Shown here one piece after another: positions 36,146 to 61,720 of a stretch of DNA of 64,000 nt. The notes below the pieces were generated by a model. The model ran no database searches. It saw nothing but the letters and a program-made list of their open reading frames with translations, and was not told the origin of the DNA. Every line of letters begins with the position of its first letter. The first letter of the stretch is position 1. Position numbers and translations under genes: made by a program. The stretch comes from Bifidobacterium sp. ESL0763 (GTDB taxonomy: Bacteria; Actinomycetota; Actinomycetes; Actinomycetales; Bifidobacteriaceae): the NCBI RefSeq assembly GCF_029433395.1, contig NZ_JAQTHW010000002.1:806001-870000 (forward strand), read 5' to 3'.

Positions 36146-36814
36146 TTACTTCTCCTCGGCGTCGCCATCGGCAGCGGCGGCGTCGCCATCGGCAGCCTCG
36201 CCCTCGGCACCCTCGGCGGCCTCGCCCTCGGCGCCTTCGGTCTCGGTGGCCTCGGCGGTGGATGCGGTGGCATCCTCGGGGATCTCGACGGAGACGACGG
36301 AGTCATCGTCCTTGATGTCGACGAGCTCGACGCCCTCGGGCAGCTCGAGGTCCTTGGCAAAGACCTTCTCGCCGTCCTGCAGGCCTTCGACGTTGGCGTC
36401 GATGCGCTCGGGCAGGTTGGCCACGTCGGCGCGGACCAGCAGGGTCTGCATGTCGACGAACGCGACGGCCGCGCCCTTCGGGGTGCCCACGGCGAAGACG
36501 GGCACGGTGACCTCGATCTTCTCGCCGGCCTTGACCTCGTAGAAGTCGATGTGCTCGACGATGCGCTTGACGGGGTTGCGCTGCACGTCCTTGACGACGG
36601 CGAGCTTGGAGTCCTTGCCGTACTCGATGGTGAACAGCGCGTTCGTGCGACGCAGCGCCAGGGTGGTCTCCTTCATCGGCAGCTTGACGAAGACGGGCTC
36701 GTTGCCGCCGGCGTAGATGGTGGCCGGAATCTGCTGGGCCACGCGCATGCGGCGGGCGACGCCCTTGCCGAACTCGGTGCGGACCTCACCGGAAAGCGTG
36801 ATGGTGTTTGCCAT
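36146..36814 (-). CDS. rplY: 50S ribosomal protein L25 (Ctc form)
   Basis: A 222-residue L25/Ctc protein that binds 5S rRNA. MANTITLSGEVRTEFGKGVA and the RVAQQIPATIYAGG loop are typical, followed by the C-terminal TL5 beta domain. The last 40 residues are an acidic Ala/Glu/Asp/Gly repeat tail (EGAEGEAAEGAEGEA...), encoded by DNA with short tandem repeats. The ATG at 36814 has AAGGAG; a frame start five codons up is inside that site. A single gene with its own terminator. Confidence 0.95.
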   Translation of the reverse strand: MANTITLSGEVRTEFGKGVARRMRVAQQIPATIYAGGNEPVFVKLPMKETTLALRRTNALFTIEYGKDSKLAVVKDVQRNPVKRIVEHIDFYEVKAGEKIEVTVPVFAVGTPKGAAVAFVDMQTLLVRADVANLPERIDANVEGLQDGEKVFAKDLELPEGVELVDIKDDDSVVSVEIPEDATASTAEATETEGAEGEAAEGAEGEAADGDAAAADGDAEEK

Positions 36815-51756: not shown

Positions 51757-51828
51757 TCTGACGTACATATTCCAACACCATCGGGAAAATATATCCAATC
51801 AAGCTCATCTGACGAACATATTCCAACA
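51757..51828. repeat. Two-unit 51-bp repeat in the sufU-sufT gap
   Basis: The 21-mers at 51757-51777 and 51808-51828 differ at one base and are exactly 51 bp apart. Both end in CATATTCCAACA. The same CCAAC core at the same step recurs near 59.7 and 61.0 kb. Confidence 0.85.
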
Positions 51829-57869: not shown

Positions 57870-59552
<1,683 letters not shown>

Positions 59553-59980
59553 GGAACTTCAGTCTATCAGCGCCTATTGACGCGGCGTGTCCGTAAGCCC
59601 CTCCATGACGGGCTGCGAATAGCCCGACCTCGCTTCAACGCGGTCGCATTCCAACGGTATCGCAAAATTGGTACCGCAGAAAGCCTCTGACCGTCCATAT
59701 TCCAACGGTTTCGTCAAATTAATGACGCGCAGAGACAATAATCGTTATTGTTCCAACATTGTCGTAAAAACAATGCCTTCCACGTTTCATAACCGTCAAT
59801 AATCCAACATCATCGCAACGTCAGCCGCATCCACAGCCAACCATCAAACGCATGATCAGGCCAACCGTGACGCCAACCGGCCAACATACGACACGCCAGA
59901 ATGTGGATAACTAAAACCGTTCGACCACAGTCGTCGCACCAGCTTGCGCCGTCTGGGCCGCTCCCCATATCTTCGCTTTT
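59553..59980. other. 428-bp divergent region
   Basis: Holds the 51-bp array above, and must carry the promoters of pyrG and the next gene. A possible -10 (TATCTT, 59968-59973) sits seven bases before the next ATG. No other gene is supported. Confidence 0.5.
59648..59814. repeat. Four-unit 51-bp repeat array between pyrG and the nuclease-fold gene
   Basis: TTCCAAC or ATCCAAC cores start at 59648, 59699, 59750 and 59801, exactly 51 bp apart. The first two units share 11 bases (ATTCCAACGGT) and then TCG; the last is near-identical in core to a unit at 61.1 kb. Units are otherwise variable. No coding sequence is seen. It lies in the divergent region of pyrG and the next gene. Confidence 0.85.
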
Positions 59981-60937
59981 ATGAGACACAACAAACACAT
60001 CGAGACCATGCTTGACCGGGCCCAATGCGCACATAGCTGCCTTGCATGTGGCGCAAGCCCCGAGTACCGCGCGCTGCACCGACGCTATAAATGCGGCGAA
60101 CTGCTTTCACCATATCCCTGCGTCTTCGTCCGCGAATCGTTCTGGAACTCGCTCAATCCGATCGAGCAGGACCTCGCCACCATCAGGGCGCTCGCGCAAT
60201 TGCATCCAAACTGGATCTTCACCGGATTATCCGCTGCCAGCGTCCATGGTCTCGACCACAGCTATGCGCTCCATCGTTTGCACCACATCCACATCGCCAC
60301 CGACACCGGTCAGGGGGCGCATAACCATGCGAGGCTCGAACGGGTCTACCTGCATCATCCCCATATCGAAAGCGTGGAGATGATCAACGTCACGGATATC
60401 CCGCAAACCCTCGTGGTACTCGCCAGACGACTGCCGTTTCGCGACGCGCTCGCGCTTTTCGATTCCGCAAGTCGAAAAGGTACCGGCAAAACGGCGATAC
60501 TCGAAGCCTGCAGAACGATGCGTTGCGACAAAACGGACATCAACCGCCTGATCGACGAGATGAATCCCCTGAGCGAGAACAGCGGAGAATCGTTGGCACG
60601 GGCAACCATGATCGAATTGGGTTTCATAGTTCCCCGATTGCAGGTACCGTTCCCCAACTCGGATCCATCGCGCCAGCCCTATCGCGTCGATTTCGCATGG
60701 CGCCTGCCCGACAACCGTTGCATTGTGGGAGAATACGACGGCATGCAAAAGTATGTGATGCAATCAGCGGGCGGACGAACCTATATCGAAGCAAAGGTGC
60801 ACCAGCAACTCAGGCGTGAAGAGGATCTCAAACGACAGGGCGTGGACGACATTATCCGCTTTCAGTATGAGGATCTACTCCGGCCCGCACGATTGGCCGG
60901 CAAGCTGGTTGCCGCGGGAATACCAAGGTGTCGATGA
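59981..60937 (+). CDS. AbiEi-type regulator with DUF559/Vsr-like nuclease fold
   Basis: A 318-residue protein of a type common in actinobacteria. The N-terminal part (about 15-190) resembles AbiEi-like winged-helix regulators (FTGLSAASVHGLDHSY). The C-terminal part carries the residues of a PD-(D/E)xK-like DUF559 domain: GES at 202-204, Asp237 (YRVDFAW), Glu251 and Asp253 (GEYDG), Lys257. No toxin partner is next to it. There is no ribosome site; TATCTT lies seven bases ahead, so the mRNA may be leaderless. Base use is less GC-rich than neighbours. It is flanked on both sides by 51-bp repeat arrays. Function unknown. Confidence 0.7.
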   Translation: MRHNKHIETMLDRAQCAHSCLACGASPEYRALHRRYKCGELLSPYPCVFVRESFWNSLNPIEQDLATIRALAQLHPNWIFTGLSAASVHGLDHSYALHRLHHIHIATDTGQGAHNHARLERVYLHHPHIESVEMINVTDIPQTLVVLARRLPFRDALALFDSASRKGTGKTAILEACRTMRCDKTDINRLIDEMNPLSENSGESLARATMIELGFIVPRLQVPFPNSDPSRQPYRVDFAWRLPDNRCIVGEYDGMQKYVMQSAGGRTYIEAKVHQQLRREEDLKRQGVDDIIRFQYEDLLRPARLAGKLVAAGIPRCR

Positions 60938-61006
60938 ATACCGCCTGCGCACACTGGCCAAACGTTATTGTTAGGATATAACCAGATACACGTCGCTAAA
61001 GGCAAT

Positions 61007-61121
61007 ATACCAACATTATTAGAAGAATAATACCTCTAAGCAGAGGTGTGAGGCCATAATCCAACATCATTATTGGATTATGGCCACATAGAACGCTAAT
61101 AGTCAATAATCCAACATCATC
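61007..61121. repeat. Three-unit 50/51-bp repeat array downstream of the nuclease-fold gene
   Basis: CCAAC cores start at 61010, 61061 and 61111 (steps 51 and 50). The middle unit also forms a perfect 13-bp palindrome (61052-61064 with 61073-61085). The last unit shares the 20-mer GTCAATAATCCAACATCATC with the fourth unit of the upstream array (61102-61121 and 59795-59814). Lies between convergent genes. Confidence 0.85.
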
Positions 61122-61125
61122 AGGC

Positions 61126-61578
61126 TTACGTCCGGTCGGCGAGCAGGTGGGCGACGGCGTCGAGGGCGAGCTTGTAGCCGTAGAAGCCCATGCCGGTGAT
61201 AGTGCCGGTGGCCACTGGACTGATGACGCTGTACTTGCGGAAGGCGTCGCGGGCGGAGGGGTTGGAGATGTGCACCTCCATCAGGGGCAGGCCGGCGTCG
61301 GTGACCATCTTGGCGGCGTCGGAGAGACCGTAGCTGTAGTGGGTGAAGGCGGCGGGGTTCATCACCACCGGGGTCCCCTCGTCGACGGCGCGGTGCATCC
61401 AGCCGATGACCTCGGCCTCGTCGTCGGACTGGCGCACCTCGGTCTCGAGGCCGAGCGCCTTGCCCCACCGCGCGCAATCCTCGCGCAGGGTCTCAAGGTC
61501 CTGGCGGCCGTAGATGTCGGGCTCGCGCACTCCCAGGCGCCCGAGGTTGGGTCCGTTGACGACGATTACCTTGGTCAT
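61126..61578 (-). CDS. aroQ: 3-dehydroquinate dehydratase, type II
   Basis: Third step of the shikimate pathway. The 150-residue type II enzyme has VVNGPNLGRLGVREPDIYG (with the catalytic Tyr at the end), NPAAFTHYSYGLSDA, VEVHISNP (here MEVHISNP) and a final VISPVATGTITGMGFYGY. The ATG at 61578 follows AAGGG at nine bases; an upstream start is inside that leader. It lies 142 bp after aroKB, probably the same operon. Confidence 0.95.
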   Translation of the reverse strand: MTKVIVVNGPNLGRLGVREPDIYGRQDLETLREDCARWGKALGLETEVRQSDDEAEVIGWMHRAVDEGTPVVMNPAAFTHYSYGLSDAAKMVTDAGLPLMEVHISNPSARDAFRKYSVISPVATGTITGMGFYGYKLALDAVAHLLADRT

Positions 61579-61720
61579 ATGCTGTCCCTTCATGGTTGGT
61601 TGGAAAACTTATCGCATATCGCACCCGCACTTTGCGATGGACGGGATTCGGGAAACGCCGGAATCCGGCCGTTGCCTGGAATCCATCCACCCTTTTGTGC
61701 GAGCTTTGGTGGCGCGGTCC

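Follow-up and report, generated by a model that had tools for sequence, protein, structure and literature searches.

Many members of a gene family widespread in bifidobacteria lie between arrays of palindromic repeats that are private to each gene copy and mostly spaced in whole turns of the DNA helix, a combination that probably points to a repeat-spreading system not described before. The member described here (the focal gene) comes from a 64,000-nucleotide stretch (C2:806001-870000, hereafter the window) of the approximately 1.95 Mb genome of Bifidobacterium sp. ESL0763. We consider the chances evenly balanced that its protein binds its own phased palindrome array and nicks or cuts there, with repair then copying and moving the units. 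The arrays, the gene and its neighbours are as follows (window positions):

59981 to 60937, plus strand: focal gene, encoding a 318-residue protein modelled as an AbiEi-like two-domain part (residues 2-195) and a Vsr-fold PD-(D/E)XK nuclease (residues 199-315)
59636 to 59839, plus strand: left array, four 51-bp units with TCCAAC cores at 59650, 59701, 59752 and 59803
60995 to 61125, plus strand: right array, three units with cores at 61009 (ACCAAC), 61060 and 61110 (steps of 51 and 50 bp), extending to the end of aroQ
61049 to 61088, no strand: most complete palindrome of the right array, two 16-nt arms, 94% complementary, with 8 nt between them
57870 to 59552, minus strand: neighbour pyrG (CTP synthase; Pfam), divergent from the focal gene and outside the system
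61126 to 61593, minus strand: neighbour aroQ (type II dehydroquinase; Pfam), convergent and outside the system

An earlier note on this DNA, made from its letters without database searches, had placed the gene and its 318-residue product correctly and had reported a 20-mer common to both arrays, which is the exact match GTCAATAATCCAACATCATC on each side. Its steps between units (51, 51 and 51 bp on the left, 51 and 50 bp on the right) also stand, but the positions it quoted for the CCAAC cores were 2-3 bp too low. With at most two mismatches allowed, ATNATCCAACATYATY has five matches in the window, four of them at the focal arrays, against a mean of 0.09 and a maximum of 1 in 100 shuffles; the remaining match, with two mismatches, lies away from the arrays at window positions 51767-51782. 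Short-period tandem repeats detected by TRF at window positions 36157-36258 are unrelated to the focal arrays in position or unit. Three TCCAAC cores at steps of 48-54 bp were found in 2 of 112 genomes of the genus, namely G060 (one match) and the present genome, where they mark the focal locus and gene-free arrays at C2:214.6k and C2:891.0-891.3k; the same pattern run backward as a control gave one match each in G049, G068 and G108.

The focal protein is predicted to be an AbiEi-type antitoxin part fused to a Vsr-type nuclease, and the nuclease fold named in the earlier note is recovered in the model, joined to a DNA-binding part. The modelled fold has the two domains of an AbiEi antitoxin (structural match with an rmsd of 6.2 over 177 residues), followed by a Vsr-like fold with acidic and lysine residues of the PD-(D/E)XK type; the nuclease-motif residues D237, E251 and K257 are invariant in the family alignment. 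Vsr endonuclease cleaves a strand at T:G mismatches. A single PADLOC AbiEi model matches 74 of 108 family members. Foldseek returned no match at an E-value of 0.001 (the best was 1zel, at 3.7e-3), Pfam and NCBIfam held no named family for the focal protein, and the single match in a PDB sequence search (E 0.51) was disregarded. No tyrosine-transposase family is among the 17 Pfam families listed for the 108 members, and histidine is absent from the invariant or nearly invariant columns of the 108 sequences, which argues against a HUH/Y1 tyrosine transposase. A search for the AbiEii toxin (PF08843) gave no match in this genome, which is 93% complete, and was positive in 4 of 14 control genomes. 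The name 'CTP synthase', carried by UniProt relatives (P0001, P0018, P0020 and many others), was rejected as an apparent misnomer propagated from the neighbouring gene, because the real CTP synthase is the adjacent pyrG.

Homologues at E <= 1e-10 occur in 93 of the 112 genus genomes, with up to 12 per genome, while 19 of the 112 have no match. The present genome has six gene copies, the five paralogues being 31-39% identical to the focal protein, and by eye each copy has its own distinct repeat on both sides. To score such sharing, the best ungapped match between left and right flank was taken, with a threshold of 16, which five of the six copies reach (20 for the focal locus; 32, 62, 24 and 26 for others) and L049 does not (13). 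Among 122 different proteins from the matches listed (first set; flanks up to 700 bp), 70 loci share a locus-specific repeat between their two flanks, compared with 5 of 483 combinations in which flanks were swapped between loci; the four top swapped pairs are loci with proteins 74-77% identical. Gene-length control boxes elsewhere in the same loci never reached 16 (0/69), and 6 reached 14. These controls bear out the proposal of the earlier note that gene and arrays form one unit. When named genomes and further genomes of the taxonomic family were added (169 different proteins), 98 loci reached 16, and 138 showed either left-right sharing or an internal repeat. The earlier note had held that a gene found without arrays as often as with them would speak against such a unit; this is seen in small part, as 31 of the 169 loci have neither sign. 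Several genes are in two or more pieces in G112 and G149, which belong to another genus of the family and have 10 and 16 matches, respectively; their copies have possibly expanded and partly decayed.

The spacing of the units follows the pitch of the double helix. Internal repeats, defined by a score of at least 14 that none of 244 shuffled flanks of the first set reached, are present in 205 of 338 flanks, and their nearest offsets cluster at 50-53 bp (58 flanks) and 60-64 bp (67 flanks), with further steps near 70-73, 81-84, 93-95, 100-105, 115 and 122-125 bp. The period spectrum of the offsets peaks at 10.4 bp; no ladder is seen for the 43 of 205 nearest offsets that lie at 20-44 bp. Because relatedness could inflate the ladder signal, one locus was taken per 60%-identity cluster (n=70, best offset at 45-130 bp); 60 of the 70 offsets (86%) fell within 1.6 bp of a multiple of 10.4 bp, where 31% is expected, and this coherence was not equalled in any of 20,000 uniform simulations. 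The five-turn and six-turn states interchange at least 14 times on the tree (105 labelled rows). Distances between palindrome centres (n=73) show the pitch weakly (R 0.51 at 10.2 bp vs 0.43 at 13 bp). The suggestion of the earlier note that a 51-bp step is about five helix turns extends to the family, in which whole-turn spacing recurs. Such spacing is typical of cooperative binding to double-stranded DNA, and since it changes by single turns as one repeat sequence gives way to another, it is a sign of protein bound to double-stranded DNA. Hairpin RNA was set aside as the prime explanation because the spacing follows 10.4 bp.

Laid out at their own period, the arrays consist of imperfect palindromes of about 50 bp with arms specific to each family. 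In the 138 array loci, 264 non-overlapping palindromes were found (vs 2 in shuffles), with a peak of the outer span at 47-50 bp, and palindromes lie on both sides of the gene in 70 of 169 loci. The 18 units of the focal family, from three sites, have a strong left half (C.aA.cGTCA.TAaTCCAACA) and a weaker mirrored right half. In a second family (F2, of paralogue L047), ten copies, which start with TTGCGC or variants, pair in 88% of cells (sliding gave no more than 41%), and the variable part is a few nucleotides between conserved arms. Cells changed on both sides are present in the three outermost F2 pairs; none of 500 shuffles matched the covariation score, while 13 of 500 were as high in cells changed on both sides and 240 of 500 in pairs with such changes. 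These paired changes are ambiguous: hairpins, symmetric binding and template-switch correction of palindromes would each account for them.

The length of the units resembles that of published AbiEi operators. As described in PMC7319586, an AbiEi operator has two 23-bp inverted repeats 3 bp apart, and the Rv2827c promoter has two inverted-repeat pairs that lie 4 bp from each other and have an internal spacing of 13 bp. These operators would imply pairs 49 or 59 bp long and tandem repetition every 63 bp, near the lengths found here, if the 23-bp half-site is taken from the literature. We infer that each unit is a pair of AbiEi-type half-sites, each of about 23 bp, with a gap of 3 or 13 bp; periods of 51-53 and 61-63 bp would therefore be the same geometry, one turn apart.

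Repeat copies also occur away from the genes. About 35 gene-free sites of six families were counted by hand in this genome (focal family 2, F2 16, F3 11, F4 1, F5 2 and F6 3), a total that is a lower bound because 40 of 67 first-look candidates were scored. With a codon-based ORF caller, which replaced a first caller that had marked 13 of 30 rows as coding, 21 of 22 sites checked are intergenic (14 between tandem, 4 between divergent and 3 between convergent genes) and one overlaps a predicted ORF. F2 copies L300, L314 and L320 are single, sharp palindromes of about 53 bp that end abruptly in unrelated flanks. The first unit of a gene-free array of the focal family (L046:3950-4045; C2:890950-891045) is a near-perfect hairpin followed by T residues and lies behind a phosphoribosyltransferase gene (xpt by eye), of which it may be the terminator.

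One alternative, possible though on the unlikely side, is an autorepressor with an oversized operator, in which the AbiEi part would bind both arrays and loop the gene, the copies elsewhere would serve as a regulon or sponge, and the nuclease would act elsewhere. Both the geometry of the units and their whole-turn spacing suit such a repressor. AbiEi proteins bind paired inverted repeats in their own promoters, and the AbiEi protein of S. agalactiae bends DNA, according to PMC7319586. However, the palindromes lie away from the promoter (the median distance from the start codon to the nearest one is 230 bp, 96 loci) and also downstream of the gene, gene-free copies sit in convergent and tandem spacers as well, and a pure repressor would not need an invariant nuclease motif.

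Synteny and repeat turnover bear on how the system is inherited. Among 99 pairs with protein identity of at least 66%, 57 are syntenic on both sides, 20 on one side and 22 on neither. Inheritance is mainly vertical and gene movement is rare at best, because most such pairs keep synteny. Family members occupy the pyrG-aroQ site in 11 of 169 loci (with aroQ alone seen at L019 and pyrG alone at L189); these residents are not one clade but require 7 changes, at least 5 of them forced by supported branches. Pairs were compared among the loci that had sufficient repeated 10-mers (157 of 169). Shared repeats were seen in 9 of 10 pairs at protein identities of at least 85%, 15 of 44 at 70-85%, 12 of 189 at 60-70%, 6 of 491 at 50-60% and 29 of 11,512 below 50%. 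Repeat and protein thus diverge together. Repeats can also be replaced at one unchanged site: among pairs with two-sided synteny, 18 have arrays at both loci; in 10 of these the repeats are shared and in 6 nothing is shared, and L166 and L174 (67% identity) occupy the same site with no repeats in common. Likewise, L063, the closest focal homologue among the matches listed (64%, same site), has a different core with the same 51-bp step and a similar linker. Within the 62-82% identity band, sharing was predicted with an AUC of 0.74 by the Vsr domain, 0.66 by the wHTH and 0.54 by the middle domain; no domain alone predicts it, and the DNA-binding domain is therefore not singled out.

The repeats of one paralogue family (F3) illustrate how far repeat and gene can part. 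They match 8 of the 112 genomes, in multiple copies in two genomes with the F3 gene clade (G000 and G083) and two without it (G088 and G092), and as single matches in G085, G086, G090 and G012; conversely, G082 and G084 have the clade and no match to the F3 query. Arrays with no link to the gene family, which the earlier note had named as evidence against a single unit, are therefore found in small part, as the gene-free arrays and the multi-copy F3 repeats of the two genomes lacking the clade. The match in G012 adjoins a broken F3-clade gene with stops (G012:C5:244550-245573; L355, L369) and is one decayed repeat, so that this locus is a possible decaying cassette. Outside the taxonomic family, 28 of 29 homologous loci have flanks long enough to score. 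The threshold of 16 was reached by 6 of 7 close homologues in other classes and by 9 of 21 more distant homologues, which range from the same order to the same phylum; flank swapping gave 6 of 756. The close homologues (L255-L261), which belong to other classes of the phylum and lack a perfect DnaA box upstream, have perhaps moved between bacteria by transfer.

A role in defence or addiction is unlikely. On this view the nuclease would poison the cell or target incoming DNA, and the arrays would either tether it in a harmless state, as a DNA antitoxin, or mark self DNA; the matches to the PADLOC AbiEi model, the nuclease domain, the rapid change of the repeats and the several paralogues per genome agree with this. 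Against it stand the lack of a match to the AbiEii toxin in this genome, the place of the focal gene between housekeeping genes and the mainly vertical inheritance.

The gene copies have a promoter in common, with these elements at the focal gene:

59902 to 59910, minus strand: perfect DnaA-box sequence TTATCCACA, a promoter element across the family
59922 to 59929, plus strand: second conserved promoter box CGACCACA, at -59 from the start codon
59968 to 59973, plus strand: probable -10 element TATCTT at -13, a conserved position (TANNNT near -12/-13 in 145 of 169 loci, within the interval scanned)

The focal mRNA is probably leaderless, because a -10 element at -13 leaves no room for a leader. 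A perfect TTATCCACA on either strand lies within 220 bp upstream in 110 of 169 loci, and none was found within 200 bp downstream (0/169) or at 400-600 bp upstream (0/168); CCACA boxes peak at -54 to -56 and -84 to -87. In this genome TTATCCACA occurs at 51 places, including a cluster beside dnaA (Pfam), vs 8 for the reversed control. Upstream of the six copies, four have TTATCCACA and the other two TTATGCACA, both of which are box types given for the B. longum origin in PMC2430713. Because the copies have the promoter element in common while their repeats are private, the reader of this element is likely a host factor, most simply DnaA.

It is improbable that the arrays are chromosome-organising sites, that is, clustered and DnaA-timed binding sites that arrange the DNA or link it to replication. 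The DnaA-box sequences of the common promoter and the phasing of the arrays would fit, but several private families per genome with fast turnover are ill-suited to an essential architectural role, and 19 of the 112 genomes lack any family match. An RNA-guided array of the CRISPR or TIGR-Tas kind, in which the units are transcribed and their variable parts serve as guides, is very improbable: the arrays adjoin a nuclease gene and have conserved arms with variable centres, and TIGR arrays likewise flank, on one side or both, a gene that can carry a nuclease domain (PMC12045711), but a B-DNA pitch is needless for RNA, the variable parts of F2 are a few nucleotides enclosed by conserved arms, the AbiEi and Vsr folds account for the modelled chain, and Rfam in five loci gives two tRNAs only. 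TIGR-Tas has a Nop-domain protein and RNA guides, whereas the units here look like binding sites on double-stranded DNA; no Nop fold is among the matches listed for the model, and no alternating edge/loop repeats were seen in the laid-out arrays.

The best reading of these comparisons is that the repeat-spreading system would be a REP/RAYT-like counterpart made of unrelated protein parts. Like REP/REPIN sequences and their RAYTs (PMC3116915, PMC3733652), the genes have their own palindromes beside them, a different family for each gene copy, and dispersed, intergenic, gene-free copies. Unlike them, the AbiEi-Vsr protein is not a tyrosine (HUH) transposase, the arrays are in whole turns and the promoter has a DnaA box. 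REPs exceed 100 copies per genome (PMC2817692), a figure far above the copy numbers found here, and REP/RAYT palindromes end in a GTAG tag (PMC3733652). CGTC-tagged REPs resemble the present repeats as intergenic palindromes without a known tyrosine transposase, but no dedicated enzyme is reported for them in PMC3733652, whereas here a gene lies beside each family; the text of that paper does not mention Bifidobacter. The AbiE type IV toxin-antitoxin system (AbiEi; Rv2827c) resembles the present one in the modelled fold and in unit lengths equal to paired 23-bp inverted half-sites (PMC7319586). It differs in that here no AbiEii toxin is found, a nuclease is fused instead, the neighbours are pyrG and aroQ, and units resembling an operator have multiplied, with arrays on either side of the gene and copies scattered elsewhere in the genome. 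The predicted nuclease part differs from Vsr endonuclease and the DUF559/MTES_1575 nucleases in its fusion to an AbiEi-like part and its link to private repeats. Similar DNA was not found in a plasmid collection, and a literature search of open-licence PMC papers returned nothing linking this protein family to repeats.

In the repeat-spreading system as we picture it, AbiEi-type parts would bind side by side, on one face of the DNA, along their own array of palindromes of about 50 bp, and the Vsr-type nuclease would nick or cut at bound units, acting on the palindromes, perhaps as extruded cruciforms. Repair after cutting would copy and move units, so that nuclease action may both homogenise arrays and seed new sites, and DnaA may couple expression to replication, when a sister copy is available for repair. 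The wider claim, which we advance tentatively and rate somewhat short of even, is that this is a new class of self-spreading repeat, with private phased palindromes, an AbiEi-guided Vsr nuclease and a DnaA switch at replication, a tyrosine-free counterpart of the RAYTs.

In bacteria, the enzymes connected with dispersed palindromes are so far mainly tyrosine transposases (RAYTs), and for some repeat families no enzyme is known. The AbiEi-Vsr protein is of a different kind and is found in most species of a major gut genus, beside its own repeats in copy after copy. Whole-turn spacing that is kept while the sequences change fully offers a physical handle, as arrays shifted by half a turn should fail. 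Such a system would give a role to AbiEi-like proteins without a toxin partner, and would provide a natural series of protein/DNA-site pairs for reading a recognition code.
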